From assembly GCF_964204645.1 (NCBI RefSeq), contig NC_134025.1, positions 19,314,001 to 19,374,000 of the forward strand: a stretch of 60,000 bases of DNA. Direction: 5' to 3'. Origin of the DNA: Tubulanus polymorphus. Lineage: Eukaryota; Nemertea; Palaeonemertea; Tubulaniformes; Tubulanidae. Numbering within the stretch: position 1 is the stretch's first letter; each line of letters opens with the position of its first letter. The notes beneath the pieces were generated by a model. It saw only the letters and a program-made list of their open reading frames with translations. It was not told the origin of the DNA and made no database searches. Both the position numbers and the translations under genes were made by a program. Of this stretch, positions 5,560 to 58,000 are shown one piece after another.

Positions 5560-8500
5560 CTGTAAAAAAGAAACTCTGCTAGCATTAGGTGGTCGAATAA
5601 TCAAAAAGGAACTAGGGGTCGAGGGACACCATGCCCACTTGGAATGTGCTATCAAATGCTCAACAATCTAACAACTCATATTCAACACCCCTGGTGACCA
5701 TATACTGAAATCAATGACCTTGAATCTTATTCTACGAATCAACGCCCCCTGGTGACTCTTGAAACTCACCACAATCATATAACATGCCTTATGCTACAAT
5801 TTTGCAATTGATTGCTGTAACACACTATTCCCAGGAAATATGCCGAGGTACCAATATAATATGGAAATACTTAGTTATTGTACTATTCAACGCCCCCTGG
5901 TGGCCATATAAAACTAGGGGTCCAGGGACACCATACCCAATTGAGAAGTGGTTTCAGTTGCTCAACAATATACAAAATATGTAAAGGCACGAATATAATA
6001 TAGAAATACTAAGTTATTGTATTATTCAGCGCCCCCTGTGGCCATGTACAAAAACCAATGACCTTGAAACTCACCAAAATCATAGAACACGTTATGAGCT
6101 ACAACTTTCCAATTGATTGTGGTAAAAAATATGCTTAGGTATCAATGTAATGTGGAAAAACGTTTTTCCACCTACGAATGAGTACTGACGACACCAAGAT
6201 GGCTGCCAATTGCGTCATAATTGGCTGATCAAAAATACCAGTCTCAGGTATAAAAGATCCCTTACCAAAGAATACCCATCACTAATTGCAATGAAAAATG
6301 GCAAACCAGTAGGAAGCTACAGGATTCAGAATTCAGGCAAAAATTGACATTTTTGGGCGCCAAAAAGGTCCTAGACAGCTATCTTGAGTTCAATTGACCC
6401 AATTATCCTTATGCTGATGAGCCCTTGGGGAATTCAAATATATCCCAACGATCAAGATGATTTATCAATGCGTCTTCAAGATTTCCCTCCAAAATAAAGG
6501 ACCATGGGTCCAGTAGGATCAACTGAGTACGTTTTAGTTTTGAGCACAAAAATCGATTCGTTCTTGGATTTGCAATTACGTATAAACAGCTGATAACGAT
6601 GAAATAAATCATCATGGTGCACTGTGTAGTAAGCATGTTCAACTTAGTTGATATACATGGTACTGGGTTTTCCCTATGAGTCACAAGTACCTGGTAGAAC
6701 AGTTCTCTATAATGATGTCACTGGGAAAGCCCTTCTAGAGGGATTTCCAAGTGATGCCCTTCTGAAGGGCTTTCCCTGTGATGTCATAAAACTAGGTCAA
6801 GCATCAATTAGTAGAATCGGAAAAAATTTATTGAAATTGCACATTTTCTCCCAGTACTTCCAAACGGCTTAGAGCTGATGGACGAAACCGGCCATATTAA
6901 TTCCACCATCCATTTTCCACCTATTGACAAAAATATCAGCTGTGCATATACAGTGGTTACAATTTGTGCCACAAAGAGCTAACAGAAACTAACTAGGGGT
7001 CCAGGGACACCATGCCCACTTGGGAAGTGGTTTCAAATGGTCAACAATCTAACAATTTCACTATTCAGGAAATACTAAGTTATTCTACTATTCAACGCCC
7101 CCTGGTTACCATATTCAAAACCCAATAACCTTGTAACTCACCATAATCATAGAACATATCATGAACTACAATTTTGCAATTGATCATGGTAACAAAATAT
7201 GCCTAGGTACCAATATAATAAGGATATACTAAGTCATTCTACTATTCAACGCCCCTGGTGACCATATAGAATAACTTATGTCCTTAAAACTCACCACAAT
7301 CATAGACGATGCCATGAGCTACAACTTTGCAATTGATTGTGGTAACAAAATATGCATAGGTATGACTATAATATAGAAATACTAAGTTATTGTATCATTC
7401 AACACCCCCTGGTGGCCATATACAAAAATAAATGATCTTGAAACTCACTGAAATCGTAGAACACAATATGGGCTACAACTTTCCAAACAATTGTTGTAAC
7501 AAAATATGCTTAGGTATCAATATAATGTGGAAAAACTTTTTCCCAACTACGAATGAGTACTGATGCCACCAAGATGGCCGCCAATTGCATCATAATTGGC
7601 TGATCAAAAATACCGTTCTCATGTTTAAAATATCCTTTTCCAAAGAATACCCATCACAAATTGCGATGAGAAATAGCAACCAGTAGGAATCTACAGGACT
7701 CACAATTCAGACCAAAATTGACATTGTTGGGCACTAAAAAGGATCTTGAGTCCGATCGACCCAATTTTTCTCATGCTGATGGCCCTTGGGGGATTCAAAT
7801 ACATATGAAAGATCAAGGTAATTGATCAAAGCATCTTCAAAATTTCCCTCAAAAAGTTCAAAAATGTGTAAAAAGTGCTGATTTTGGCGAACAGTCGGTC
7901 ATCTTGATTCCGACAGTGCCAGTTTTTGGGCTGAAGATGTGTCTAGGGTAGATACATGTGTAACCCAAATATCAAGACATTACATTAAAGCGTCTTCAAA
8001 AACTGGATTCCGTCTACGGACGGAGGGATGGACGCTATGAAGGACGAACAGACAGACGACAGACGAAAAGTGAACGAAATAGCCCACTGGGACTAAAGTC
8101 CCAAGTGGGCTAAAAATATAGCTTAATAAATCTGGACTGAGTGAGTTTGACCATAAAAGGTGAGACATATGGTAATAACACAATTACCTTTGCACCATTT
8201 CTTCTTGTTCTTTAACCATATGTGCTAGTTGTTGAAAAATACCTCCTAATTCAACAATAGTCTGTTCTATATTTTGCATAGTATCTGCCCGACTCTGAAT
8301 ATAGGAATCCTAGAATGTAAAATCGTTATTCCTGTATCTTAAATTTCAGGTAATAAGGGTCAAAATCTCTTTGCTTCATTATATTGTAATGTTTTTTTAT
8401 TGTAATGTCTTTTTCTCTCCTTTTTACTCTCCATTTCCTGTATTGTCCACTTTATTGAATATTGCCAAACCGATGTTATGTAAATTGTTCAAAATTATTA

Positions 8501-14500: not shown

Positions 14501-17500
14501 CTCTATCAATTATGCATCAAGTGGGAAAAAGGCCTTGATTAAACACTTATAGCCCAAACATATTAGAAATTACGACGAACAGAAACAAAATATGAAAATA
14601 ACATCTGCAAGTGGCGTCGTTGCTGTTGCCGCGCCTACTAATACAGGTCGAAAGATATTGTCAGAGCGGATAAGTAATGCTCAGGGAATGGTTATCGGGG
14701 TGATAGCAGCAAATAGTCTACCACTGTTTGTAGCTCCCGTTTTGATTGATTTGTCCAAGGAATTGGCCAAAGACCCGGAAGTCATGTCCAAAATTTCTAT
14801 GGACCGTACATCGTGTGGTTATAAACTTAACTACGGTGTCCATCGGTATATGCAGGATTCGACAGTCGAAAAATTAAAAGCCGCTCCGTTTTGTTTGAAC
14901 ATAGACGAGGCCAAGTCAAATACCAAAAAGTGTGTACTGGGTATATTGGCCAGTTACCGTAAAAACCGGCGTATAAGTCGAGTTTTTAACCCTTGATTTT
15001 ACCACTAAATTATTGACCTCGACTTATACGCCGAGTACAGTTTTCTACTAAGTATTTTCAGGTCACAAGAAATATTGATTCTACCAGATAAAAAAGACAG
15101 TGTTCATCTTCTCACTGCTATAACAGTTTCAATAATTATTCATGATAAATAAAGCTATTTAATGAAAAAAACCTCTTTCATTTTGACACGGCTTCATTTA
15201 AAACGATGTATTCATATATGCGCGCTCATAGCAGCGCTTAATACATTAGGCTATATATAGGCTATATATAGAGTGTGACTCACACTACTGTATCACTGTA
15301 TGGTAGTGTATTATACCCGAGTGTGTGTGTAACAGTCTATTGATTAACACACAGCAGCAATCAGGCCAATGCACAGTGGCGTGCGTGAAGGCACACATCG
15401 TTATCAAAACAAACTATTCAATACAATGATACTAGTAATTATTCTTCTAAAAGAAGGGACTCGACTTATAAGCATATAAGGATATATGTTAAAATCATGA
15501 AATGTAGATCTAAAAATCGACCTCGACTTATACGCCGCGTAGACTTATACGCCGGTTTTTACGGTATTTTTCCGTCCAGGATGGAAAAGTCGTGATTGAG
15601 CATTTGGACGCACTTAGCTTGATATCCGTTAACACAGCTTCGATTCTTGGTGGTTTAGACAGCTTGTTTGAACTAGGGATCCAGGGACACCATGCCCACT
15701 TGGGAAGTGGTTTCAAATGCTCAACAATATAACAATTTCAATATTCAACGCCCTCTGGTGACCATATACAAAAATCAATGACCTTGAAACTCAATACAAT
15801 CATAAAACATGTCAGCAGCTACGATTTTGTAATTGATTGTGATAACAAAAAATGCCTCGTTACCAATTTAATATGAAAATACTAAGTTATTCTACTATTC
15901 AACGCCCCCTGGTGACCATATTCAAAACCCAATAACCCTGTAACTCACCATATTCATAGAACATGTCATGAACTACAACTTTGCAATTGATCATGGTAAC
16001 AAAATATGCCTAGGTACCAATATAATAAGGAAATACCAGGTTATTCTACTATTCAACGCCCCCTGGTGACCATATATAATAACTAATTTCCTTAAAACTC
16101 ACCACAATCATAGATGATGTCATGAGCTACAACTTTGCAATTGATTGCGGTAACAAAATATGTATTGGTACAAATATAATATAGGAATACTAAGATATTG
16201 TATTATTCAACGCCCCCTGGTGGCCATATACAAAAAACAATGAACTTGAAACTCACCCCAATCATAGAACACGTTATACGCTACAACTTTCTAATTAATT
16301 GTTGTAACAAAATATGCTCAGGTAACAATATAATGTCGAAAAACTTTTTCCCACCTACGAATGAGTACGAATGACACCAAGATGGCCGCCAATTGCGTCA
16401 TAATTGGCGGATCAAAAATACCTGTCTCAGGTATAAAACATCCCTTTACAAAGAATACCCATCACAAATTGCAATGAGAAATGGCAAACCAGTCGGAAGC
16501 TACAGGACCTAGAATTCTGGCCAAAATTGACATTTTTGGGCACTAAAAAGGTCATAGGATGGCCATCTTGAGTCAGATGGACCCAATCTTTCTTATGCTG
16601 ATGAACCCTTGGTAGATTCAAATATAATCGAAAGATCAAGGTAATTGATCAAATCGTCTTCAATATTTCCCTCGTAAACTTCGAAAATGTGTAAAAAGTG
16701 CTGATTTTGGCGAACAACAATGGCTGCCAGTCGGCCATCTTGATTCTGATAGGCCAGTTTTTGGGCTGAAGATGTGTCTAGGGTAGATACATGTGTAAAC
16801 CAAATATCAAGACGTTACCTTGAAGCGTCTTCAAAACTTCCCAAAATAACTGGATTCCGTCTACGGACGGACAGACGACGGACGAAAAGTGAACGCAATA
16901 GCCCGCTGGGACTAAAGTCCCAAGTGGGCTAAAAACTGTCAATTTCCTCGAGCAACCTTCTTGCAATTCTTATGGATTCGTGCTCTGTGATGAGAGGTTC
17001 GAAAAATGGTCTCGAAGTTAAAATACGCCAGGAAAAGAATCCGTTGCTTCTTGATGTAGATGGGGACATCTGCCACCATCTGCATATTGCTGCGAAACAG
17101 TTTGCTAAACCATTTGAAGGAAATGTTGATGGACTTTTCAGTGACGTCCATAACGATTTTAAATGGTCTGCAGACCTCAATGACTGGCTCAAAGAGATTT
17201 GTTTCTTGTTAGATGTACCGTATACTGTTCCAGAAAGATTTGTCAGTCATAGATGGCTGTCGGCTTATGACTGCGCTATTTTTACGATTAAAATGTGGGA
17301 TGCCTTCGTAGTTTTCTACTACGCATTTTTAGCGTCTGAAACGGCCACATATACAGATATGATATTGAGTATGTTCCGTAAACGCGGCACTAGTGTAGAG
17401 GCAAGAGCTCGTATCAAATCCATTTGGGAAGAGTTGCGAATTAAAGCCAAAAAGCTGACCGACGATGGCAAACAGCGTAAGAAACGAATCGTCGATAAAT

Positions 17501-20500
17501 TATTGTTTAAGCCGAAGGAAGCGAAGTTAATCATCAACTTGTATATATCGGTTTATCCGTTGTTATCCAAGTACGTAAAGTTGTTCCAGGGATCGGATCC
17601 TCTCATTCATGTACTTCATGATAAAATTGAAGAACTGTTTAGAGAATTTCTATCATGTTTTGTGAAACAAGAAGAAATCATTGATGCAGACGTCAATCAG
17701 CTGAAATCCATGGATTTGGATGAAAGTAGCTCACGCTTACCGAGGAAAGAGTTTTTCGTTGGATGAAAAGAACACTAATGTAGTAAAAGACCACGGTCGT
17801 GACTCCGTGGTCACAGCGTTTCTGGCCAACACTGAGACGGCATATGTAGAGTGTGGAAAAACACTACAGAGGAAGTTACCATTACAAAACCAATTCCTAA
17901 TGGCAGTTTCAGCCATAGACCCGGCATGCCCAAAGCACCACGCCATGATGAATAGCCTCTTACAGCTGAAGAATTTGGTTGGTATTCTGGAAGAGTCGGA
18001 ACTTGAACAGTACGACCTTGAAGTGCGAAGGTAAATTAATTATACGTGTACATCTATAACTATTTTTACGTGAGCTTTGATGCCAATTTAAAAAGAAATA
18101 ATTTGTATCCTTGTCCTGGGTCTATGTATTTTTAATAGATGAGTATTCCCGATGTTTTTATTTTGAATGGTTTCTGGTTGACAAGTCTTTGCCGCTATAA
18201 TATAAATTATATTATAAGATCGATGAAAAAACTGGAAAACCAACTCTGAGAGCGGATGTATATATAATATATATAATAAGTTTATTTCTTCACTAAAGAG
18301 ATACAATACAGAAATACAGTCATCACTATTACATAAAAGAAAAGTTACAGAAAGTACTTCTACACTGTAAAGCGTAGTAAAGAAAAAGGACAAAAAGGGA
18401 CCCCAAAGGGGGGTATACTTTTAATGAAAAAAGCCTAATGCCCTGGCGGAATGGATGGACATGATGTTAAACACAAGTATGATAAGTATTAATACAATCC
18501 TATTATATGTCTTTTCAAATTCCGCTTGAATATATCGATGTTGGATGCTTGCTGAAGTTCAGTTGGAAGAGAATTCCAGACTCTAATACAATTAATGTTA
18601 GGAGAAAACATCCTGATATTGGTTCTGTAATAAGGTAAACGAAATTGATTAGAGTTACGGGTGTTGTGGGAATGAAGATCAGAAATACGAATTAAACTAT
18701 TGGACAATTTGACAGGCAGCAACACATGGACAGATTTATACATCAGTACAGAATTTTGGAACACATTGATGTCTTGAAGTTTGAGTTGATACGACTTTTT
18801 GAACAGTGGAGTAGTGTGTTCTAGAAAATTTACCCCACTAGCAATGCGAATAGCGCGTTTTTGAAGCAAAATAAGGGGTCGTAACCTAGTTACATAATTA
18901 GATGCCCAGACGATATTACAGTACTGTAGATACGGAAGGATGAAACCGTTGAATAACTTGATGAGCGCGGATCTAGGAAAAATACGTCGTGCTTTTCTTA
19001 ATACACCAATATTTCTGCTAACAATAGAGCACAGCTTGTTTATGTGGGAGTTCCATGTTAGGCTGTCGTCAATTATTACACCAAGGAATTTTGTTTCTCT
19101 GTTTCTAGTTATTGAAACATTACCCATTACAAGGTCGATATCATCAAGAATATTGATCTTTTTATGGAAAAGCATATAATTCGTTTTCAACAGATTAGCA
19201 GATAGCCTATTGGAGTTTAGCCAGTTAAACAGTTTAGTGAGCTCAACATTAGTATTTGATTGCAGTATATTCAGATCGGAATGAGAGTTAATGGCAGTCG
19301 TATCGTCAGCAAATAGTAAAAAGTTTAAATTACAAGAATAAACGATGTCATTAACAAACAAAATGAATAGCAAGGGCCCTAAGATGGAACCCTGAGGTAC
19401 CCCTATAGGAATGGGACTGACATCAGATAAATAGTTCTTGAACGACACTTGCTGTAAGCGGTTAGTGAGGTAGGATTTGAACCATGAATGAGCAACCCCT
19501 CGAATTCCGTAACTATACAACTTGTCTAATAATATAGAATGATCAATAGTGTCAAATGCTTTTTTTAAATCAAGCATGATACTAACAGTAAATTTTCCAT
19601 TATCTAGATTCTCAGTGATGTAATTAGTAAATGCGATTAAAGCATGTGACGTGGAGAGACCTTTTCGAAAACCGAATTGGTTACATGAGAGAATATTGTG
19701 TTTATCAATAAAAGAAGATAACCTGTTGCTAACAGCTTTTTCAAAAAGTTTTGAAAATGCTGGTAAAAGTGAAATGGGGCGGTAATTGGACACATTATTT
19801 ATAACACCGGATTTATAAACAGGGACTACCCTAGCCATTTTGATACCCGATGGGACAATACCAGTAACAAATGAATTGTTAATTACATGCATTAACGGTT
19901 TGCAAATATGCTCGATAGACTGTTTAAAAATAAACATAGGGATTTCATCCCATCCAGATGAAGTTTTGCCTATAAACTGTGAAACAATGTCATGAATTTC
20001 TATTTCAGTAACCGGAAACATAAAGAAATTATCAGATATGTTAGTTACATGTGTTTCCCTATTGGGTTCTGGTTGCGGTATATCGCTAGCAATAGAGGAG
20101 CCTATAGTACTAAAATAATCATTAAATAGATTAGCAATAGCTTTACAATTATTTATAACAGTACCACAGGAGTCTAATAAGGCAGATGGTAATTTTGGAG
20201 GGCCCTTCAAGGCTAAGGTCTTTTTAATGACGTTCCATGTATCCTTTACCTTGGATTTAGAAAAATCAATGCAAGAAGCGTAATACGAACGCTCTGCGAA
20301 TCTGAGTAAGTGTTTAAGCTTATTATTATATATAGTATACTCAGATTTATCGTCAGAGTTACGAGATTTCAAATACTTTTTATAGAGGGAATTCTTACGT
20401 TTAATCGATATAAGAAGCCCTGGAGTTAGCCACTTATGGTTATTTTCCTTATTTCGAGCCGAGGGTTGTTCACACAATTTGAGGGGAAAGAAATGATCGA

Positions 20501-23500
20501 ATAATTCTTTGTACATAGATAAAAACACGGTATATGAAGACTCAGGATTAGGGTCACCAAGCACTGGATCCCAGTCAGTTTTTGAAAGCGCATCACAAAA
20601 TAATAAAATAGATTTTTTAGGATAATGGCGCCTGAAAAAAGAGTCTCTAGTGGGTTGACAGGTAGTAATATCAGAAAATACGAAAACAGGCAAATGATCT
20701 GAAATGTCAAAGGTGAGTAAACCCGGTACATGTTTACTCAATGGTATGTCATTTGTGAAAATATTATCTATGACTGACTGAGAGTTTTCAGTTATTCGAG
20801 TGGGTTTATCATTTAGCGGTAGAAATGATAAGGAGCACATAGAATCAAAGAAATGTTGTACTCGGGAGTCTTCGTTATAGTCAAGGAGGTTTATATTGAA
20901 GTCACCCAGTATATAAAATTTACGATTACTAATCAAAGGCCAGGATTCAAGTTTATCAATAAATGATTGGTTAAAAGAGTTGATATCAGGACCCGTCCTG
21001 TATACAACGCCTACAACTACATTCTTAATTTCAATGAATAAAGATTCATATACATTATTACAAACACATAAATCAGTAAGGATTTTATATTGAATGTTAT
21101 TCTTTATATACAAACAGACACCACCACCATTGCTAAATGATCGGCTTTGAAATTCACAGTTATATCCGTCAAGGTGATATAGCGCATTATTGTTGTCATT
21201 TAACTTAGTCCACGTTTCAGTCACTGCTATAATATCGAATACATGACTTATAGATTTTAAGTTACTTTTTAATTGACTAAAGTTTTTATTAAGACTGCGA
21301 GAGTTAATATGAATTAAACTAAACTTTCGATTAATAGGGAGGAACTTTTCGTTGAAGTCAGCAGAGCAAAAGTACTGACTAGAAGAACAAGAAAATTCGG
21401 TATCTTCAGAAGTATCAAGTGCTATTTTTTTTTTATTTAATACTGGCTTTTTTTACAGACTGGCTTACGCTGGGCGAGGGCGTAGACCTGTCACTACGAT
21501 TTCGTTTTTTGCCTGATTTCGCAGGAGTCACAAACGTGTCACCATCATCCTCTCTGGTGATTGATGATAAAAAGTTATCAAGAAGGGCGTTTTTTCCGCT
21601 ACGACAAATATGGATACCCGAACTATCCGACATCGCGTAATACTGCTCGAGTACGGTGCCCTGTGGCTTGAAGACGCGGTTATTATCAATGAATGGTATT
21701 CCTTGTTGTTCGCATAGTCGCATAGTGTACGAATTTACGAGTTAATTACTTCGTTAATTTCATTTGATTTACTGCTATTTCCTCTCTTTGGGAGTATCGA
21801 CGACACATGAATTTTAGCGTTTCGGAAGCGTTCCATTGTTTTAGCGATCGAGGTTGAGGTATTGACCTTCACCGAGTCGGGATCCTTTTTGTGCCTGTTT
21901 ACATCGCACGTACCCAAATGGATAATTACGGTATCGATCTTGTCAGGGTCTAGGACTGGTTCGCATAGCGATATCAGGTGTTTCTCAAAGTTTTCAAAAC
22001 CTCCACCAGGTGCACAGACGACATGGAAATCCTCACCAAACTGGATGTCTCTGATATTGGAGTCTCCGATTACTATTTTAGTTTTTTCTACATTTTCTAT
22101 AGCAGGTTGCCTTTCAGTTTCAGTCATGTTGTCAGGTAACAAAATATTCGGATTTTCCGGGGGATTATGATCTGAACTATCGATCAGCACGGGGCAGTCG
22201 CGCTTGATGTGCTCGACTGAACCGCAGTTAAAGCATTTGCGCGGTTCAATTCTAGGCGGTTTGAGAGCGCAATGATATGACGAGTGATCAGTGCCACCAC
22301 AGTGCGTACAATTTGTACGATTCTCATCACAGTATAATCTTATATTAAAATCTCCAAACTTTGTGTACGTGGGGATAACTTCAGACACATCACACAATTG
22401 CAAATATCGAGTCCCAGTAAATATTTCTGTCCCTTTGATTTTCCCACGTTTGATAGATCCAGCAATATAGGTCCCATATTTGCTCATGAATGAAACGATC
22501 GTTCTGTCATCGAGTTCGATTGGCGCATCAACCACCTTAATCGAAACTACGTTTTTTGTGACATCATGAAGGGAAATGTCTGTGTCTTTGATTATGAGAG
22601 GACCACTACACAGAGCTCTTTTCGAATCGGCATCTTTAACAGTTATTATGCACTGTTTCGGTGTCAGTTGAATAGCCAAAATGTTACTCACATCAATCCG
22701 AACATTTATTCCATTAATAATATCCTGATGAGCCAGCTTTCCCCTATACTGGGATAAGTTAAAGGCTATAGATAAATCCCTGTTGATATTAGACATTGCT
22801 GCACTTATAATACACCGAAAATAAGATAAATTCTGAAGAGCACGGTCAGTGAACGTGTCCACTATCCGCCATTTTGTGGATAGTCTGGTGGGGAATGGTA
22901 GATCGGTCGAAGTATCCAACACTTTGCAAGATGGCAACTACTCTGTTGTCTATATTCCACGGACCACAGGTGAGTTTAACATTTAATTTCATTCCATGAA
23001 TAACTGCTATTAACAAAGTCATTGTACGAAATCTAATTCAATTTTATTTCTACCGTAGGTCGAGTCCAGCTTTAATGTTATGGGTGACATTTTACACAGC
23101 AAGGCCAGTAACACTAGTATACGCACGTATGCTGCCTATCAAGCAATAAAATTTCGCCTTCATTCTCGTGAAAAAACGGCAATAGAATTCTTCAGAAATG
23201 CTCCTCAGCTAGTTGCAACAAACATACAGAATTCTTCGCGGATTTACAGAAATGAGCTAAAAGAGCTAAAAGAGGCAAAAGAAAACAGAGAAAAACTACT
23301 CAAAATAAAGAGAAATCTCGAAACAAAAAAGACACAAAAAGCTAAATGCCAGGAAGCCGCAAAAAGAGCACGTGAAATACACATCAAAGCCCAGAAACGA
23401 AAAAGTAGGGCGAGAGTGTTGGAAGAACTGGCGAAAAAGCTGAAAAAGAACTAGCCTAACTGTAGGCCTACTTCTCGGACTTTCCGTTCATTTGTATTGT

Positions 23501-26500: not shown

Positions 26501-29500
26501 ACAGACTCGCCTGCATATCAAATGAATTATATTAATTCTAAATTGGTCAGTAAAAGTTTATGATTCGCCATGTCATGTATCTATAGTGTTTTTTAATCAA
26601 ATTTTTTCCAGTTAAACCCCTAAGTCTGACTTGTTCATAATGCCGGGAGAATCAATCGTAAGATTTTCATCCCTGAAACTTAAAGCAACAAGTGATGCTC
26701 ACAAAAATCCCAAGTGAGATTCATGGAATTGCCTTGATAACTTAGATGTATTGTTTCCACAACAAGTGTTCATGTTTGCCATCTCCAACTTTGCTATAAT
26801 TCAAGGTAAACAAATAACCCTTTCAGTACGCCTACACCGCAGTGCAATGTATGAATTGGTGATGGATTTTGCTAGTACACTTCACTGCGGCGTATTGATG
26901 TAATTAGTAATTAGTTTTATCTCTATTGAAAATTTAGTGAAATACTAGTACCGTAAAAACCGGCGTATAAGTCGAGTTTTTAACCCTTGATTTTACCACT
27001 AAATTATTGACCTCGACTTATACGCCGAGTACAGTTTTCTACCAAGTATTTTCAGGTCACAAGGAATATTGATTCTACCAGACAAAAAGACAGTGTTCAT
27101 CTTCTTACTGCTATAACAGTTTGAATAACTAGGGGTCCAGGGACACCATGCCCACTTGGGAAGTGGTTTCAAATGCTCAAAAATCTAACAATTTCAACAT
27201 TCAACGCCCCCTGGTGACCATTTACAAAACCAATGACTTTGAAACTCACCACAATCATAGAACATGTCAGCAGCTACGATTCTGTAATTGATTGTGATAA
27301 CAAAATATGCCTCGTTACCAATTTAATACGGAACTACTTAGTCATTCTACTATTCAACGCCCCCTGGTGACCATATAGAAAAACTTATGTCCTTAAAACT
27401 CGCAACAATCATAGATGATGTCATGAGCTACAACTTTCCAATTGATTGTGGTTACAAAATATGCAAAGGTACGAATATAATAAAGAAATGCTAAGATATT
27501 GTATTATTCAACGCCCCCTGGTGGCCATATACGAAATCCAATTACCTTGAAACTCACCACAATCATAGAACACGTTATGAGCTACAACTTTCTAAATGAT
27601 TGTGGTAGCAAAATACGCTTAGGTATCAATATAATGTGGAAAAACTTTTCCCCGCTTACGAATGAGTACTGGAGACACCAAGATGGCCGCCAATTGCGTC
27701 ATAATTGGCTGATGAAAAATACCTGTCTCAGGTATAAAACATCCCTTTCCAAAGAATACCCATCACAAATTGTAATGAGAAATGGCAAACCAGTAGGAAG
27801 CTACAGGACTCAGAATTCGGGCCAAAATTAACATTTTTGGGCACTAAAAAGGTCATAGGACGGCCATCTTGAGTCCGACCGACCCAATTTTTGTTATGTT
27901 GATGGGCCCTGGGGGGATTCACATATATCCAAAAGATCAAGGTAATTGATCAAAGCGTCTTCAAAATTTCCCTCAAAAAGTTCAAAAATGTGTAAAAAGT
28001 GCTGATTTTGGCGAACAACAATGGCTGCCAGTCGGCCATCTTGATTCTGACAGGGCCAGTTTTTGGGCTGAAGATGTGTCTAGGGTAGATACATGTGTAA
28101 CCCAAATATCAAGACGTTACCTTGAAGCGTCTTCAAAACTTCCCAAAATAACCGGATTCCGTCTATGGACGGACGGACGCTACTAACGCACGAACGGACG
28201 GACGACGGACGAAAAGTGAACGCAATAGCCCGCTGGGACTAAAGTCCCAAGTGGGCTAATTATTCATGATAAATAAAGTTATTTAATGAAAAAAACTTCT
28301 TTCGTTTAGACACAGCTCCATTTAAAACGATGTATTCATATATGCGCGCTCATAGCAGCGCTTAATACATCAGGCTATATATAGCGTGTGACTCACACTA
28401 CTGTATCACTGTATGGTAGTGTATTATACCTGAGTGTGTGTGTAACAGTCTATTGATTAACACACAGCAACAATCAGGCTGACTCGCAGCGGCGTGCGTG
28501 AAGGCGCACATCGTTATCAAGACAAACTATTCAATGATACAAGTAATTATTCTTCTAAGAGAAGGGACTCGACTTATAAGCCGGATATATGTTAAAATCA
28601 TGAAATGTAGGTCTAAAAATCGACCTCGACTTATACACCGCGTAGACTTATACGCCGGTTTTTACGGTAACTAACGATAAAACGCGCCGCGGTGTAGACG
28701 CACTATAGTGGTATTCCCGTTATTAAACACACTAGGGTGGAATTTTTCAAAATTTTCAAATTATCTCCAGCACTATAGGGTATTGATTAATCAGCACTGA
28801 AAGGGTTAAAAGTAAATTTGTTTATTTGTAATTTGTCCAGATAAATGTAGCGAAATCATTAGTCTGAATGGATTTGGCAAAAAATTGGGCGATCCAGTAT
28901 TTCATGACAAATTTTTAGTTGTCTGATTCTAACATGTTAGAAATATTTGCTTAGATTTGCTTCAATGAAGGCATTGATTCATGCAATTTGCATGATCCAT
29001 GGGCAATGTAAATCTAGTAACTCAGAACTAGGGGTCTAGGGACACCACGCCCACTATGAAAGTGGTCTGAAATGAATCTAACAATTTCAAAATTTCACGC
29101 CCCATGAAGCAATAAACCAGTAAACTTGAAACTCATTAAAATAACAGCATATCTCATGAGCTATAGTCCTTACTTAAAATTAAATTTGGTAACAAAATAT
29201 CCATAGATCCTAATACAATAAATGTATGAAGAAGCTAATAAGTTTAAAAATCACCAAAATCATTGAAAAGGTCATGATCTGCAACTTTGCTATGGATTGT
29301 GATTACAAAATATGCATGTACAAATAATTGAAAGATAATAATTTTGAATTTCCATTCTCAATTCCATGTGAGGAGATATGTCCTGTGATAGTGCACACAA
29401 ATCCATGAGAATTAATACACACACGCAGATGTCGAGACGCCTTCATGAATCTGTGTCGAATTACACCGTCATATAACCTATTGTAAGCCCTATACAGGGT

Positions 29501-32803: not shown

Positions 32804-33310
32804 CTAGGGGACCAAAGGTTCTGTGCTCTCAAGGCCAGTTTTCATGATATTAATGAAAACATATTACTACTCTTTTAATCATGCAGATCTTCCGTTAAAT
32901 CAATTACTGTAATAACAGTGTGCTTTTTTGAAAATCTGAAAATTTCAATAAATCTAAGAGCATGCCATGAGCAACATTTAAATAATTTATTGTGGTAACA
33001 AAATGTGATGCCAAGGCACCAATGTATGTAGGAATACCATGTTATTCCACTATTAAAGCAGAAAACAATGACCTTGAAATTCAGCACAATCGTAGAAAAT
33101 GTCATGACTCCAAGCAATTGCATTCTGAAACTATGGCTAGACCACTATATATGGAGGTAGCAAGTTTTTCGACCATTCAACCCCCTGGTGAACATATAGG
33201 TCTATAGAAACTAATGACCCTGAAACTCACAAAAATCAGTTATGAGCATCAAATTTGCAATTGATTGTGCTTACAAAATACGCGTGTGTACCAATATTAA
33301 TGGAGCAAGA
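32804..33310 (+). mobile_element. Element B fragment upstream of STX5 (old)
   Basis: It starts CTAGGGGACCAAAGG just upstream of the STX5 start. Diverged repeat units are recognisable by GGTAACAAAATGTGATGCC, TGACCTTGAAATTCAGCACA and a degraded motif CCCCCTGGTGAAC near 33182. Confidence 0.6.
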
Positions 33311-33731: not shown

Positions 33732-34463
33732 TAGTCTGAATATTAGTCGTTGTTACCTACCCTACAACGTCTGACGCTAAAGTATCATATAGGCCTAGAG
33801 GTTAACTCCAGTTAATTGCAATGCAACAACTGATCTTAGTGTCAAATCAAACCTTTGTACTAAAATGAATTAATTGGTTACCTTGTTGACTTTGAAAACG
33901 TGTTTTATAATAATATTTTTGAGGATTTAAATCGCGAACTGGAGAATTTATTGATTTGATTTTAATTGAATTGATTGCCACAATCGGGATTTCCAATATG
34001 GACTAAATTAATAAAATGTGAAAATTCAATATGTCTTTTTAAAATTACTCTAAATGTTATTTTTTGTTGATAAAACGTAAAAATTTTGGTCAATTTTAAC
34101 CTTAAGAATTTGAAACAAGAATAATATCTGCATTGGCATCAATGTCAGTCCAAGTTCAAGTCCGAACCCTTAATTTACACTCCCCATCATGCACCACGAA
34201 AAGCCGCCATATTTGTTATGTTGCTTCACTTCAACGATTTTTTGAGGCGACTAGTCAAAAGTTTTGAGCTACTACGATTGTCAAAAGCTACTTAGGATAA
34301 CAAATTTATGCACAAACAATAGTTAACTTCCATCTGATTACAGAACAGTCAGTTTGAGGTAAGTTGATGGTGTTTTAAGGGGTGAAATAGACACTCAATT
34401 AACCTTATATGAGCACTTTTGCCCTAGACGTTGTTTGTAGAACGACGGCTAGATACTAGACTA
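33732..34463 (+). mobile_element. Mutator-like MITE, copy 1
   Basis: A 732-bp non-coding element with about 60-bp imperfect terminal inverted repeats (TAGTCTGAATATTAG against TAGTCTAGTATCTAG inward). It is flanked by 9-bp repeats GGGACGCCC and GGGACACCC with one mismatch. A 9-bp duplication is the hallmark of Mutator-like elements. Copy 2 lies inverted at 36795-39182. Confidence 0.75.
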
Positions 34464-36794: not shown

Positions 36795-39182
36795 TAGTCT
36801 AGTACCTAGCCGTTGTTCCTGAAACAACGTCTAGGGCAAAAGTGCTCATATAAGGTTAATTTTCGTCCCTCATTTTGAGGGACGAGGCTTTGAGCGTCTA
36901 TTTCACCCCTTAAAACACCATCAACTTACCTCAAACTGACTGTTCTGTAATCAGATGGAAGTTAACTATTGTTTGTGCATAAATTTGTAATCCTAAGTAG
37001 CTTTTGACGATCGTAGTAGCTCAAAACTTTTGACTAGTCGCCTAAAAAAATAGTTGAAGTGAAGCACCATGACAAATATGGCGGCTTTTCGTGGTGCATG
37101 ATGGGAGTGTAAATTACGGATTCGAACTTAACTTGGACTGACATTGATGCCAATGCAGATGTTATTCTTGTTCCAAATTTTTAAGGTTAAAATTGACCAA
37201 AATTTATGCATTTTATCAACAAAAAATAACATGTAGAGTAATTTTAGAGAGACATATTGAATTTTCACATTTTATTAATTTAGTCCGTATTGGAAATCCC
37301 GATAGTGGCAATCAATTCAATTCAAATCAAATCAATAAATTCTCCGATTCGCGATTTAAATCATCAAAAATTTTATTATAAAACACGTTTTCAAAGTCAA
37401 CAAGGTAACTAATTAATTCATTTTAGTACAAAGGTTTGATTTGACACTAAAATCAGTTGTTGCATTGCAATTAACAGGAGTTAACCTCTATATGATAGCT
37501 ATATCCATAAAAAATTTAAATAGCTCCAATCTTACTGAAAGAAAGCTTGTTGGAATGGGGAGGGCTCAAATAACAATATGCTTTTTTAAATTTTTGAATT
37601 ATCTTCAATAGTTTTCGAGATATCGCAAAATGAAGTTTGAAAATTTGAGCGAAAAGTGTCTTCATGTTTCAATACACAAAAACTGTGATCTAATAAGGCA
37701 ATATTTCATGTAAACAAACTTCAATATCTCTTAAACTAAAAGAGATAGACTAGAAATTTAAAGAGCAATACACTCATAGCACTTTCAGGTGACAGTTGAA
37801 AGACCCAAAATTTTTATCTGATTCCAAATGCCTATGGTTTCCATGGAAACCAGCCGAAAAACGGTAAAATAATGAAAATATCGATGTTAGATCATAAGTT
37901 ATGATGTAGAAAGGGGATAGAATAACTAGTTATCAATAGTTTATGTTTGCCCTAAGTTTATCTAGGAATATCTATTATTATGTAGATTATTATATTAGGT
38001 TTCCATGATAACGGCAAGAAAAAATGTGAAATATTGAGAAATATTGATATGATTTCAGATGAAATTATTTTTTTCACTACATAATTTTTGAAATGAATTA
38101 ACATGATTATCAAGGCCTGTCAGTTAGGTCTATAGCCATAGGCTCCTATTGCAAATTGATTTAAATATACCAATATATTTTATATATTATTTGCTAGATG
38201 GATTTTAGTTAAGAAAAGCAGAAAATTAGGCTTGGCCTAGCTCAAAACGCTGAAATTTGAAATATATTCATGATATCATAATAAAATCAATCAGTTTAGA
38301 AACATAAACCAAGCAATAGTAATAATACTACTAATAATAACTAAATAATAATCCATTTGTTTTGTTTTGAGCTAAATTTCAACAATATTTTATATATATT
38401 TCAATTTTGCTGCTTTTGGAAAATCCCCTCGGGAGCCTCACTGTCCCATCACGCGCCTCTATTTTTGCCCGTCACAAGCCTCAATTCATCCCATTAGACG
38501 CCTCCCTCTTAAATGCCGATCATTTCGCTAAATCTGTCCTAATATTCAGAAATATAGCGATGAATAATTATGAATCGGAAAATAAATACAATAATTCACC
38601 GCTAGACCGATGAATAATTGTTGAATATTGATCTCATCACGAGCAGCGCGGAGCGGCGTCATTCAATAACAAGCGCCGGCCGCCATTTTGTATCGCTCGC
38701 TTCAACGCAAAACTTAGACATTGAATTTTCCGGCAGCGATCGCTCAGCACGAAATAAAATCATGCGGTCTTCAGTATTTGAATTTTAAGATCCTAAACCT
38801 TCCTATTCCTGATGATTCGTCGCTTATTCCGGGTCCTAAGCTGACGAATTTTGCTCATGAAAAAGGGTATATTTCGATTTCTATTTTCTTCGTCTAAAAT
38901 GCGGATTTATACACTAAACCAACCCCCAAGTGATTAAGATAGATCTTATTGGTTGATTCCAAAGATTTTAGCTCATTTGCATTGATAGACAGGTTTTATG
39001 AATGATTTTACTACGCGATGTCAAAACGCGTAGTAAAAACGCGCATCACACTTTTCCTAATCAATAATGGTCGTCACAATCGATAGTGGCGCCCCGCGCG
39101 GACATGAACATACCTATATATGATACTTTAGCGTCAGACGTTGTACGAAACGGAACCGTAACAACGACTGGTATTCAGACTA
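36795..39182 (-). mobile_element. Mutator-like MITE, copy 2, carrying a 1.6 kb insertion
   Basis: Inverted relative to copy 1 and flanked by a perfect 9-bp repeat GGCCACCCG (36786-36794, 39183-39191). It is interrupted by a block at 37498-39116 that has its own 9-bp repeat TATATGATA on both sides. A related empty site at about 35785-35890 on the minus strand shows the sequence without the element. Confidence 0.78.
37498..39116. mobile_element. Element D copy 1, inserted in MITE copy 2
   Basis: A 1,619-bp block bounded by TATATGATA on each side. Its first 190 bases and last 600 bases recur at 40283-41322; its middle does not. No terminal inverted repeat is evident and no long frame is present. 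The right part is GC-richer, with GGCCGCCATTTTGTATCGCT, and lies about 0.9 kb before the MTR start. Confidence 0.6.
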
Positions 39183-39881
39183 GGCCACCCGGAATGCTTT
39201 TAAGTCAGGTTGAAATAGACATTAGATATTAACAATAACAATAAACAAGTGTAACTCATTCGATTCCTGCTTCGGTAATAAATAAGAAGGATGACCGGCA
39301 GGGCAGGCCGGCCAAAAGTCAACACCCCGTCACAAGATTTGTGTAACATCTTCTGATTTCTTACAGAGAATATTAAAATCAGTTACATAGAACTACCAAG
39401 GTCGAGGAGATTCCATCAAATGTGAAACTTCAGTAAGAATATTTGACAGCGATTTTGACAGCCGATGCAGATTCGTACACGCAAACACTTCCGGGTTTGA
39501 GAAGGTGGGATTACGCGCCGGACATAGGCCTACGGACGAATCGTTGAATATGTCCATCAGTTCCAAGTTTTCCAGAGCCGGCTTGCATGTCACAATGCAT
39601 CACCCCACTCTCTTGCAATAAATTATCGGATCAGTTTCACAAAGAGGTTTCACTTAAAAATCGATCTGAGAGTTATGCCTAATAACGGTAGTAATCTGAG
39701 TTTGGAAACTGCGGGCGCGAAGTTAGTCTAATCCTACGCCTAAGTTTTCTTTAATTCAAAAAATAGCTTTGGCAAGACGACCGTCACTTCCACCAAAGAA
39801 AACGAATATGAAAATGCGAGGGTTGTTTTTGTAGAGGCGCAATTGTGTCCGATTCGGTGTCCGTTCCGCGTTGACGCTCTA

Positions 39882-39889
39882 TATAAATA
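39882..39889 (+). promoter_or_regulatory. TATA box of the MTR promoter
   Basis: TATAAATA stands about 105 bases before the MTR start codon in a locally GC-richer stretch. That spacing would put transcription start near 39910-39920 with an 80-base leader. The position is read directly; its function is inferred. Confidence 0.5.
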
Positions 39890-39990
39890 TGCGTGCAGCC
39901 GACTGTAATCTGTCATTTGTAACTGTCGGTCGCGACGATTAACTTGTGATCGTTCCTATCTTCTTCACGATTATCCACATAAATACCACA

Positions 39991-40051
39991 ATGGCTCCTG
40001 CCGCTGCAAGTACCGCTACTACTAATTCGACTAATTCATCAGTGGTGACAG
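39991..40051 (+). CDS. MTR: MTR coding exon 1 (start codon)
   Basis: ATG follows CCACA, a good Kozak context. The exon encodes [20 protein letters not shown] and ends in phase 1 at donor GTATGA. The next exon restores the frame exactly, which supports this as the true start even though the residues are not conserved. A TATA box lies about 105 bases upstream. Confidence 0.8.
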
Positions 40052-43000
40052 GTATGAGAAATGAACTAATTTTTCAAATTCAATTTCATAATAGGTAAAT
40101 CGTTTTTGTTGTTATTCTGAATTCCGCTAGATGGAGAAAAGGTCGATAAGTTTGAGCACCCACATCGTAATCCCTAAATCTACTGTCAAGTTAAATTGCA
40201 ATTCGTCTATAAAACATGTGTTCCAAATCCGCAGATCCGCTCCTCTCATGAATGGTGCAATTTAGCCAAGTTGTATTAAACTGCTCCAATAGCTCCAATC
40301 TTACTGAAAGAAAGCTTGTTGGAATGGGGAGGGCTCAAATAACAATATACTTTTTAAATTTTTGAATTATCTTCAGTAGTTTTCGAGATATCGCAAATTG
40401 AAGTTTGAAAATTTGAGCGAAAATTGTCTTCATGTTTCAATACACAAAAACTCACAGGGGTTTGGCGATGGGCTTGGATTTTATTTCCGGGTTGTTGATA
40501 ATCTCGCGAGAATTGCGCTAAATATGATTTGCGAATAAATTCAAAATATCACGGAAATACCTTGTGTTTATATTGTTTATTTATCCGCTATAAAATTCTG
40601 ATAAACAATTGGTCGTTAAGAATCATTATCAGACGGTCGTCAGACGGCTATATAAAATAACAAGAGATGACGGGAGCGTAGTGGCGATCTGCCCGGAAAA
40701 AAAAAATTTTTTGCCTATCATTTCGCTAAATCTGTCCTAATATTCAGAAATATAGTGATGAATAATTATGAATCGGAAAATAAATACAATAATTCACCGC
40801 TAGACCGATGAATAATTGTTGAATATTGATCTCATCACGAGCAGCACGGCGCGTCATCATTCAATAACAAGTGCTGGCCGCCATTTTGTATCGCTCGCTT
40901 CAACGCAAAACTTAGACATCGACTTTTCCGGCAGCGATCGCTCAGCCCCGACACGAAATAAAATCATGCAGTCTTCAGTATTTGAATTTTAAGATCCTAA
41001 ACCTTCCGATTCCTGATGATTCGTCGCTTATTCCGGGTCCTAAGCTGACGTATTTTGCTCTTGAAAAAGGGTATATTTCGATTTCTATTTTCTTCAACTA
41101 AAATGCGGATTTATACACTAGACCAACCCCCAAGTGATAAAGATAGATCTTATTGGTTGATTCCAAAAGATTTTAGCTCATTTGCATTGATAGACAGGTT
41201 TTATGAATGATTTTATTACGCGATGTCAAAACGCGTAGTAAAAACGCGCATCACACTTTTCCTTATCAATAATGGTCATCACAATCGATAGTGGCGCCCC
41301 GCGCGGACATGAACATACCTATCATAATATTAATAAATAAATGGAAGTGGATATTTTGCCAATGCGGCATTATTTTAGTAAACGCTATTTTGGCAAAATA
41401 TCGTTTACTAAAATGATGCAAAATTTTTGCCAATGGCTATATATAATAAGATATAGCAATAAAATAATTATAAATAAAATCATTATATAGGGTTTAGGGT
41501 TAGGGTTTCGATGGGCTAGGGTCCAGAGGGTTAGGTTTAGAGGTAAGGGTGAGATTTAGGGTCCGTTTTTACCCCTAGGGATAGGGTTAGGGTAAGGTGA
41601 GGTCATATTTAATGGAAACTTACGGGTGGTTTCGAGACATGGTTATTGTAATGTATGTAGACTTGTTAGAAATGATGTGAGGAGGCCGTAATTAGGCCTG
41701 GTGCAAGTAATCACATTTCAGTTCAATTGGCATTTTTTTAACACTTAGCCAAATTGTCTGATATGGTTAAAATTTAGATTAGAAAATTTCGCTGTTATAT
41801 AGGCCTAAGAAAATTTTATTTTTCTTTCAGAGTGTAGAGTGGATCACAAAAAAATTGTTTCAGGATATTTTTGACAATCTCTACTCTACTGAAAAGTTTC
41901 TCATTGCCCTACCTGAAAGTTCACTCTACTGGACGTATCGGCCACACTCCGCGCGGTTGTGCCACCGCGCGGGATTTGCACGAAGCAGCAAACACAAACA
42001 TGGCCACTCTCAATTTTCAATGATAGAAATCGTGTACACGTGCATTTCAATTATTTCGGCTGTTAGGGTTTTAAGGCACAATATAAGTTGATGATGTGAT
42101 GTGGCGATGTTAGTTAATGATAATTCCGCAGTGAAGCTAGTCACGAACGGTGCCGATTGAGTGTACAGCTGCCAAAAACACTGAAATGTGCGTAGTTGTA
42201 TAACTATTTGCAGTGAATTGCAGACGAAACATGAAGCCTTAACAGCCGTTTAAAAAAAAATTATACTAATCGCAATTGTAAAATAAAAATGAGATAGAAC
42301 CTAAGTTAAAATTCTGGCCATTTCTAAAATGTTATTACTAATTTTTAGTCAGTGCCGAACGTTTAGTTTTCCAACAATAATGAGGGGTGGTAGGTAGTCA
42401 TGCAATTCAAGTCATCATTTATTACACGTTACTTCCGTGTTGTTGAAAATCTCGCGAGTCCTGGATCAAACCCCATTGAACAATGTGATGTGTGTGCTGG
42501 CCACAAATGCACACAGATCACACTACACTACCCATTACACACTCCAGTACCCACAGCTTTCATCCATCCAAATATTTAGAGTGTCTTTCTTCCTGGATTC
42601 CTGGATGACATTCTAAGTAAGATTTATATGTACAATTGATTGCACAAATCTATGAGTGCGGATCTGCAATTTTTGTTTTACCAAGATACCTGTTAGGTTC
42701 TCCAGTTTAATGAAGAACTGCAAATGCACTCTTCTCAGTTAACATATTGAAAATTAGACTGAGTCTACTTTTAGGCTCCCCTATCAAACAAATTAATGAT
42801 TGACTGCCACTGCCTGAGTGATTAGATCTAACTATTGAGGGAAAGTGACCTTTACTTTACTTTATTTGCAAACTCTTGGTCTTAATACAAAGACAATTTG
42901 AGTGATATACAGTAAAAAAGAGCAACACTGCTAATCTGGCTGAATTCTAACTTGCCACAATTAGGCCCACCTCATTGGCCTAATTTTGATTGGTATTCAA

Positions 43001-55000: not shown

Positions 55001-58000
55001 AGGTAGTTGAAATTTTGAAGGCACTTTGATCAATTGCTTTGAGGTTTGGTATGTATCCCCTAGGGCCTAGCATCACAAGAAAAAGTGGGTCCATCGAAAA
55101 TAAGTTTACTTTTTGTTCGAAAAAGGTCATTTTAGATCTGAATTCTTATGCCTAAAGTTTCTACGTGTTTTGTAATTAGGGTTTTCTGTTTCTTCACAGA
55201 AAACCCTATTGAAATTCGCGTGATTATTATTATTTTTTTTTAACCCTTTTCCACACAGTTTTTGTTAAAAGTGTAAAGGCTTCCTTACCTTACCGCTGTC
55301 GCCGATACAATCCGTATGATATCCTTCAGCCCACTTCAATCTCCAGATACTGCATGGGAATTTTGATAAATCCACGTTGTAAAGGCACTGTCGAGCCGTA
55401 AACATCGGAAATTTGGCTCCGTTCAATTAGTAGCCATGTTGTGTTTTCTTTCCGAAATTTCTCTCTTCTTTATGAGGAAGAGCTATCGAATTATTCCCTC
55501 TCTTCTCCACAAACATTTCAAAGTCAATTTTATGAATTTATTGCTCAGCGGGTCCGAGTCCAAGAGTTTACGAGTCCGGCGTTCGCGTGTCTGACAGGTT
55601 TACGGGCATTTGTTGGTTACCTCTTTAATATTTTTGATTGGTTGTTATTCGGGTTATTTCATTTAAGTATATTGCTGATCAGTTCATGTAACCAAAAGCG
55701 TCAATAAACAGATTTTGAATTGATCAAGTTTAAATCAAGGTCGTTGAGTCGCGGAGGGCTATTAGAATTACGTTCGTCTCAGAGAGAGAACAAACAACAG
55801 AAAAGTATCAGGTGATTATCAATAGGCTAGGCTATTTGTAAATCAAAATTTTTCTAACCTGCAGTTACGTTCTGTGGCACAGTGGGTAAATCACTGGACT
55901 ACAACTGGATTTTTTTTTTTTTGTTTGGTTTCAAATCCCAATATTGCATGTCTGAGCGTCAACGTACTCACATATGGCTAACCTGTAGTAATCGCCGTAC
56001 AGTCACATACAGGTAACAACAGCGTTTTAAGTATTAAGTGAGTGCGACAAGCCTACCATGCCTATGTGCTACAAACACAACTTTTTCCCCTCTCGTCGGC
56101 CCTACAGTGATGTTACTAATAACTGGTGCCATTATAACATGGATAGGATTTGGTCAAGACTAGCCTAAAGTCTAATTCAGTCTATGTACTAATTCACTCG
56201 ATAGGCCTATTTTTAGCCCACTTGGGACTTTAGTCCCAGCGGGCTATTGCGTTCACTTTTCGTCCGTCGTCCGTCCTGGACGGAATACAGTTATTTTGGG
56301 AAGTTTTGAAGACGCTTCAATGTAATGTCTTGATATTTGGGTTACACATGTATCTACCCTAGACACATCTTCAGCCCAAAAACTGGCCCTGTCAGAATCA
56401 AGATGGCCGACTGGCAGCCATTGTTGTTCGCCAAAATCAACACTTTTTACACATTTTTGAACTTTTTGAGGGAAATTTTGAAGACGCTTTTATCAATTAC
56501 CTTGATCTTTTGGATATATGTGAATCCCCCCAGGGCCCATCAGCATAACAAAAATTGGGTCGATCGGACTCAAGATGACCGTCCTATGACCTTTTTAGTG
56601 CCCAAAAATGTCAATTTTGGCCCGAATTCGGAGTGCTGTAGCTCCCTACTGGTTCGCCATTTCTCATTGCAATTTGTGATGGGTATTCTTTGAAAAGGGA
56701 TGTGTTATACCTGAGACAGGTATTTTTTATCAGCCAATTATGATGCAATTGGCGGCCATCTTGGTGTCATAAGCACTCATTCGTAGGTGGGAAAAGTTTT
56801 TCCACATTATATTGTTGATATTTCAGCATATTTTCTTACCACAATCAATTGGAAAGTTGTAGCTCATGACATGGTTTATAATTGTGGTGAGTTTGAAGGT
56901 CATTGGTTTTTATATATGGCCACCAGGGGGCGTTGAATAATACAATATCTTAGTATTTCTATATTATATTCGTATCAATGCATATTTTGTAACCACAATC
57001 AATTGCAAAGTTGTAGCTCATGACATGATCTATGATTGTGGCAATTTTTAAGGCCAATAGTTATTCTATATGGTCACCAGGGGGCGTTGAATAGTAGAAT
57101 AACTTAGTATTTCCTTATTATATTGGTACCTAGGCATATTTTGTTACCATGATCATTTACAAAGTTATAGTTCGTGACATGTTCTATAATTGTGGTGAGT
57201 TTCAAGGTCAGTGGGTTTTGAATATGGTCACCAGGGGGCGTTGAATATTGAAATTGTTAGATTGTTGAACATTCGGAACCACTTCCCAAGTGGGCATGGT
57301 GTCCCTGGACCCCTAGTTAAAACAATACAGTGAAGTATTCACACGCAGAAAGGCCAATTGATTTGAGCCATGTGATTAAATTTGGCCAGGCCTTCTCTGA
57401 CCTGCTGACATTAATAGTCAAACCTAGATCCAAAACGTTCATATGGTCACGGCTTGTATACCAGAAATCATTGTAGGCCTGTACATTTTGCTGTTCGTAG
57501 GTTTGGTTTACCAATTTCTCCATTCTTGACTGATAAGTGTACGGTACAGCTGTATGCATTATACAATTGTTCCAATGGGAATAGGGCCTATTGATTGGGC
57601 TTATTATTTCCTGCTTTAGAATACTGAAATAAGCCTAACGTTCATTCAAATATCCAACATCGGTGAAATTTTGATTACTGTATACATGTACTGTAGGTTT
57701 TTCATGTTGTATGAATATTTTGCAGTTCAAATGAGTATGATGCTGATTCCAATGTCAAACGCATGAAGTTAGATGGACAGTCAACACCAAGATATCTCTC
57801 TTCGACCGATGTTGCACCATAGAAGATCTGATTCTTTCAACTCAAGCAAAGTGATTCAACACGATCGACATAACACTGGAATAGGTTTGCAGTAACTAAA
57901 CGGTTCATTTCATTTAGTCCTATTTACTTTTTTAGCCAATTTGAATATTATTGTAATTGAAACTCTGGAACTGTTAACAAAAGACAAGTTAAAAAAACAC

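Follow-up and report, generated by a model that had tools for sequence, protein, structure and literature searches.

Introduction

The features of HINEs, the non-autonomous Helentrons, have been published (PMC4067079, PMC7492417). The elements HINE/Cg_HINE, pearl and DINE-1 are described there with subTIRs, an inverted repeat, a GTCY microsatellite and a 3′ palindrome, with short central arrays of monomers of mostly 140-180 bp, and with TT insertion without target duplication and dispersal in both orientations. Thirteen monomer clusters, mostly of 140-180 bp, were carried by 11 Cg_HINE elements (PMC7492417).

Clustered or dispersed CTCF sites are known from other systems. Among mammalian retroelements, transposon families disperse CTCF-type sites, and young retroelement expansions add lineage-specific ones (Schmidt et al. 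2012, PMC3368268). CTCF sites are repeated in tandem at D4Z4, DXZ4 and the tRNA VNTR (PMC2639723, PMC3491370, PMC4041453), the D4Z4 and VNTR units being 3.3 kb and 7.3 kb long and located at fixed loci, and several nearby sites at TAD boundaries have been studied by experiment (PMC6945661, PMC10497529). The role of CTCF in the chromatin of bilaterians that are neither vertebrates nor insects is a debated question which bears on the genome studied here: the spiralian evidence on CTCF chromatin organisation is described as fragmented and conflicting (PMC10658181), and echinoderm boundaries as carrying CTCF motifs without an orientation pattern (PMC13317027).

Here, a repeat termed element B is described from a window of the nemertean Tubulanus polymorphus genome, the window being the whole stretch of 60,000 nucleotides that was analysed. 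Element B is likened to HINE/Cg_HINE by structure and shares the features listed above, whereas each of its monomers carries a CTCF-grade site; the passages of PMC7492417 and PMC4067079 that were consulted mention no link to CTCF. It differs from the mammalian retroelements in being an invertebrate rolling-circle DNA element with three to four co-oriented predicted sites per full insertion, from D4Z4 and the VNTR in its 154-bp units and its mobility, and from the TAD-boundary clusters in that its sites are predicted from sequence. A sequence-only reading of the window had regarded a satellite-like carrier of CTCF sites with fixed spacing as notable; HINEs with satellite-like monomers were, however, already published (PMC7492417). 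The present HINE is distinguished by having CTCF-grade sites as its monomers. A literature search, in which the Helitron papers were judged by title and the start of the abstract, found no report on CTCF together with Helentrons.

Element B is a non-autonomous Helentron

By its structure, element B is a HINE, that is a rolling-circle transposon. Its parts in the window are as follows.

15673..16936, minus strand: element B, full-length HINE (profile match 1-1269; match extents at other loci)
16901..16936, minus strand: 5′ end with the 12-bp subTIR GCCCACTTGGGA at 16918-16929 and its complementary inverted repeat at 16901-16913 (exact inverted match, fold)
16863..16884, minus strand: GTCY-like microsatellite with the sequence CGTCCGTCGTCTGTCCGT along this strand (read from the sequence)
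15673..15710, minus strand: 3′ end with the subTIR TCCCAAGTGGGC at 15694-15705 inside the short palindrome CCACTTCCCAAGTGG at 15696-15710

Read along the minus strand, element B starts with a run of Ts, the subTIR, its inverted repeat and the GTCY-like microsatellite, continues with a body of approximately 500 bp and the monomer array, and ends with the subTIR in its palindrome and CTAG-TT. The 5′ end lies at approximately 16936 and the 3′ end at 15673, with an uncertainty of a few bases caused by the terminal A/T run. The subTIR GCCCACTTGGGA was present exactly at both ends, with a hairpin at the 5′ end, and the 3′ palindrome formed a short stem when the last 60 bases were folded without a shuffle control. 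No open reading frame of at least 120 aa was contained in 15673-16936; one listed frame begins at 16933, at the extreme end of the element. An empty site for the HINE copy at 27129..28260 was found in the same host repeat at 15085-15145 and reads AATA/ATTATTC (the slash marks the junction), with no target duplication. AA precedes the plus-strand start in all 26 full-length copies and may belong to the element itself.

Three CAAGATGGC words, at 16378, 16562 and 16734, are located in the HINE body and are kept in the copy consensus; further ones in the window are found at 27679, 27863 and 28035, at 7570, and at 56399 and 56755. We take this word to be YY1-like (CAAGATGGCCGCC and similar), and thus a second architectural-factor motif beside that of CTCF. 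Element B sits between two frames (14553-17766) without a Pfam match at E≤0.01.

Copies, arrays and spacing

Apart from element B, the window contains the following HINE copies or pieces.

5612..6492, minus strand: older, rearranged HINE pieces with cores within 3 mismatches at 5685, 5743 and 5891
6993..8116, minus strand: HINE copy with three cores at 7096, 7249 and 7403
27129..28260, minus strand: HINE copy with three cores at 27205, 27358 and 27512
56210..57316, plus strand: HINE copy in the opposite orientation, with the CTCF consensus on the plus strand and cores at 56918, 57072 and 57226

When 3 mismatches or fewer were allowed, CGCCCCCTGGTGRCC matched at 17 places in the window, compared with 0.38 expected from shuffles, and Tandem Repeats Finder reported period-154 arrays at 7068-7537, 15742-16342, 27199-27635 and 56826-57247. 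The coordinates and the 154-bp arrays of the sequence-only reading were thereby reproduced, except that the core it had put at 27204 starts at 27205, which makes that interval 153. In the genome (267.8 Mb in 77 contigs) the exact core occurred 3429 times, 1770 and 1659 times on the two strands, and its reversed control was absent (n = 0); many of the 100 matches listed lay 154 bp apart. The 3′ end word of the element had 2027 matches with at most 2 mismatches (control 0).

Copies were sampled with a non-array flank, blind to the core, and the best 40 of 3064 candidates were scored, so that the sampled copies are those most like the one in the window. Thirty were taken as loci, one of them being the window's own copy. 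Of the other 29, 25 matched from reference base 1-3 to 1262-1266, and the remaining four (L023, L029, L033 and L035), which do not span the element from end to end, were left out; the statistics below refer to these 25 plus the window copy (n = 26). Outer flanks were common to 5 of the 26 copies, and L010 and L031 had flanks similar to one another, so not all 26 are independent insertions. The spacing, previously given as exactly 154 bp, was so in 66 of the 78 intervals and ranged from 147 to 162 bp in the others. Nor can the copies be counted as independent witnesses of this period, as had been supposed, since a single master, in which dissimilar units follow each other in a set order, is the source of them all. 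The arrays reach four units at most in the 26 aligned copies and in the window.

Twenty sampled 5-kb stretches (100 kb) contained no monomer at E≤1e-3, the single weak partial match having an E-value of 0.026. The element body, by contrast, was matched five times in this 100 kb, in three stretches (L055, L062 and L063), each time without monomers, and four of these five matches begin near the array end. Related elements thus lack the array or no longer have it, and the body can spread without monomers. The monomer-free matches recall published HINEs that have common flanks and other monomers.

CTCF-like sites in the monomers

The monomers were scored with the vertebrate CTCF matrix MA0139.1, which has a maximum of 31.3 bits. 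In element B, the consensus is on the minus strand throughout.

15749..15763, minus strand: CTCF-like site of unit 1, 19.5 bits
15903..15917, minus strand: CTCF-like site of unit 2, 21.0 bits
16057..16071, minus strand: CTCF-like site of unit 3, 21.0 bits
16211..16225, minus strand: CTCF-like site of unit 4 (GGCC type), 26.2 bits

The exact p-values per position were 1.8e-7 for unit 1, 6e-8 for units 2 and 3 and 7e-10 for unit 4. The monomer motif is therefore CTCF-grade by the score of a vertebrate matrix, and the resemblance to the CTCF consensus on which the sequence-only reading was built is borne out. At least three sites at p≤1e-6 were held by each of the 26 full-length copies and all four by 23 of them. 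Twelve sites of at least 19 bits were present in the window, every one an element core, and the sole site outside the cores below p 1e-5 (simulated null) was at 23855. The best agreement with TGGCCACCAGGGGGCGCTA was 17 of 19 positions, as reported earlier for a single unit; it is reached equally at 5888, 16208, 27509 and 56917.

CTCF was expected in the host, and the species does encode it, with 11 fingers, on C3. Fingers 1-4, 5-9 and 10-11 lie in three separate stretches, whose identities with the vertebrate query are 65, 52 and 44%. In a PDB search CTCF was the best solved relative of the stretch with fingers 5-9, and for fingers 1-4 a many-fingered ZNF568 chain scored 231.2 bits against 230.4 for CTCF. 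As read from the alignment, fingers 3, 4 and 5 have the same contact residues as in vertebrates, and those of fingers 6 and 7 are partly changed.

The reading we favour, with a probability of about 0.58, is that element B is a HINE with one CTCF-grade site per monomer and that the host CTCF would bind the best sites in its young copies. In this element, up to four monomers of 154 bp form a satellite-like array, each with one such site and all in a single orientation. The GGCC site of unit 4 would be bound in young copies and units 1-3 less surely, and each bound insertion would then amount to a ready-made, co-oriented CTCF cluster. The chance that CTCF binds at least part of the young copies appears somewhat better than even; insulation and a benefit to the element are likewise hypothetical.

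Conservation of the core

The main alternative is that the likeness to CTCF is a passive coincidence: the block would be kept by shared ancestry, by homogenisation of the array or by a need of the transposon, e.g. a Rep/helicase or replication site, and CTCF would play no part. We regard this as a serious possibility, about half as probable as the favoured reading, and its strength lies in how the core has been kept.

Between the four monomer types, 61 of the 154 columns vary, only 3 of them in a 26-bp block around the core; any such block was found in 744 of 20000 permutations. Within the 15-bp core 2 columns vary (483 of 20000 permutations), so the conservation between monomers reaches only p ~0.02-0.04. 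Among 188 monomer matches, in which the window's own copy enters twice, the core window took rank 10 among 138. Each of the 15 best windows overlapped the core; the best-kept 15-base windows were displaced by 3-6 bases to one side of it, a displacement that fits passive coincidence. After insertion (26 copies), changes were found at 16 of 1560 core positions and at 202 of 14844 positions elsewhere in the array (Fisher p 0.35). With CpG positions set aside, the figures were 10 of 1352 for the core against 414 of 29966 (p 0.053), for CpG decay 6 of 208 against 68 of 1378 (p 0.22), and in a phase scan after insertion the core ranked 33 of 150.

The motif had been held to be the best kept part of the units in old copies. 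The oldest units in the window contradict this: those at 50754-50892, 33126-33259, 32989-33108 and 29084-29164 have indels in the core or have lost it entirely, although CCTGGTGA is still present in two of the four. Retention of the core at individual insertions is rejected on the basis of these losses and the Fisher test. The proposed comparison of the core with the rest of the unit thus came near to the outcome that had been named as a refutation, with no significant excess after insertion; between monomers, however, the core block was conserved best. In the old monomers at 33126-33259 and 50754-50892 the word reads GGTGAAC, and in young ones GGTGACC or GGTGGCC; the word may have turned more CTCF-like in younger subfamilies, as seen from two old copies only.

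A second dispersed repeat, family F, carries CCACCAGATGGCG. In 39 copies found by a motif-free flank, and thus sampled blind to the motif, the word was kept no better than the neighbouring columns, which rules out preferential retention of the CTCF word in this family. A transposable element can thus carry the word passively, and genome-wide word counts are inflated by repeats. Together with the absence of significant retention after insertion and the broken cores of the oldest units, family F indicates that any constraint acts in the master lineage. Under the favoured reading, the site would be kept, if selected at all, in the lineage of the element, between the monomers of the master, and not at single insertions.

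Against a passive coincidence stand the scores, whose p-values lie between 7e-10 and 1.8e-7 for all monomer types, and the several unrelated repeats of this genome that carry the CTCF word (below). A match this strong is unlikely in one 1.3-kb element, though less so across all repeat families. The monomer-free copies of the element body argue against a need of the transposon in particular.

CTCF-like words outside the element

The canonical word CCASYAGRKGGCRS, which is unmatched by the consensus monomers, occurred 1240 times in the genome and 16 times as its reversed control. The shorter word CCASYAGRKGGCR was found 3900 times (control 35) and the element's own extended word CCACCAGRGGGCGTTGAAT 714 times (control 0). 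To allow for inflation of these counts by repeats, 60 of the 73 sites lying within the first 10.83 Mb of C1 were collapsed by flank similarity, the 13 left out being element cores. These 60 non-element sites fell into 45 flank classes, 42 of them singletons, where ~1.4 were expected from the reversed control; the 40-base flanks used cannot expose every old repeat. None of the four bases was preferred at position 17 of the 60 sites (T 23, C 13, A 12, G 12). A T at position 4 was found 779 times against 27 in the control, a 29-fold enrichment, and a C 1693 times against 25, these counts including repeats. The two departures of the element from the vertebrate consensus thus look acceptable in this genome. 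In the 20 sampled stretches (100 kb), no excess of matrix matches was seen at 10 bits or more (13 against 9 in the reversed control), and the best control match (17.9) exceeded the best forward match (16.8); an excess is thus seen only when strong words are counted over long stretches of the genome.

The word is carried by several unrelated repeats, namely the HINE monomer, two dispersed families and tandem repeats of 61 bp and 81 bp, so that at least three dispersed families (HINE, F and G) contain it. By chance ~0.13 such families would be expected, given the control density of 35 per 268 Mb and an assumed ~1000 families of 1 kb. This difference, which depends on the assumed family numbers, is the basis for a wider proposal: unrelated repeats would have gained CTCF-grade sites independently since recruitment of CTCF would aid their spread or their escape from silencing, and the HINE would act as a mobile architectural module which, through its four CTCF-like and three YY1-like sites, supplies most of the strong CTCF words of chromosome interiors. 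We consider this wider proposal rather unlikely, and offer it tentatively.

At L041 (G000:C1:31732000-31736500), a 61-bp tandem array of approximately 20 units contains 21 CTCF-like sites of at least 15 bits in one orientation; of three further sites in its vicinity, two are oriented likewise and one the opposite way. A repeat with CCACCAGATGGCG was present at L138-L141 in inverted pairs together with further internal repeats.

Position and orientation

On C1, the element-type word was found in 98 of 98 places between 6.3 and 23.8 Mb and was absent from both chromosome ends, whereas the canonical sites were concentrated at the ends, with 49 of 74 outside this interval and 25 inside (Fisher p 1e-24, although neighbouring sites are not independent of one another). 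In the interval from 6.3 to 10.83 Mb, 49 exact cores compare with 14 non-element CCASYAGRKGGCR and 9 TCASYAGRTGGCR. By this count, the HINE family would contribute more strong CTCF-like words to the C1 interior than any other single source.

From 5.7 to 27.5 kb of the window the motif lies on the minus strand, and from 56.9 to 57.2 kb it lies on the plus strand, a divergent layout. The vertebrate convergent rule would not join divergent pairs of CTCF motifs. The suggestion that the repeats seed loop anchors in both orientations is thus not supported by the window, in which both strands are used but the motif pairs are divergent. That the arrays serve as insulators or loop anchors of host genes, selected at individual loci, is improbable in view of this layout, of the lack of locus-level retention and of the interior location of all element-type sites on C1, where canonical sites are few. 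In its favour, a co-oriented cluster without repeat homology does exist at L040 (G000:C1:31230500-31234000), where five CTCF-like sites lie within 384 bp near a 60-bp minisatellite, with flanks 24-36% alike and words 74-100% alike; as L040 was chosen for being clustered, it is an example and not a rate. That the arrays are ordinary, non-mobile satellite DNA in short arrays, to which the 154-bp period and the up to four units might point, is ruled out for the full-length copies examined by the subTIRs, by the empty site and by ends that stay sharply defined although the flanks are in many cases unrelated, and is in general extremely improbable.

A genome with approximately two thousand recognisable element ends and up to four co-oriented CTCF-like sites, almost evenly spaced, in each element constitutes a natural experiment. 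Any CTCF binding, insulation and dependence on direction could be measured there by comparing loci with and without an insertion, units that differ at a single CTCF position, and copies in the two orientations.

Other features of the window

On the minus strand, a non-LTR retrotransposon occupies 18489-22937, with an endonuclease and reverse transcriptase frame of 987 aa and a CCHC zinc-knuckle ORF of 400 aa. Duplicated blocks, 96-98% identical and mostly ~2.2 kb apart, are found at 37583-41322 and adjoin inverted repeats at 33796-34398 and 36890-37490.
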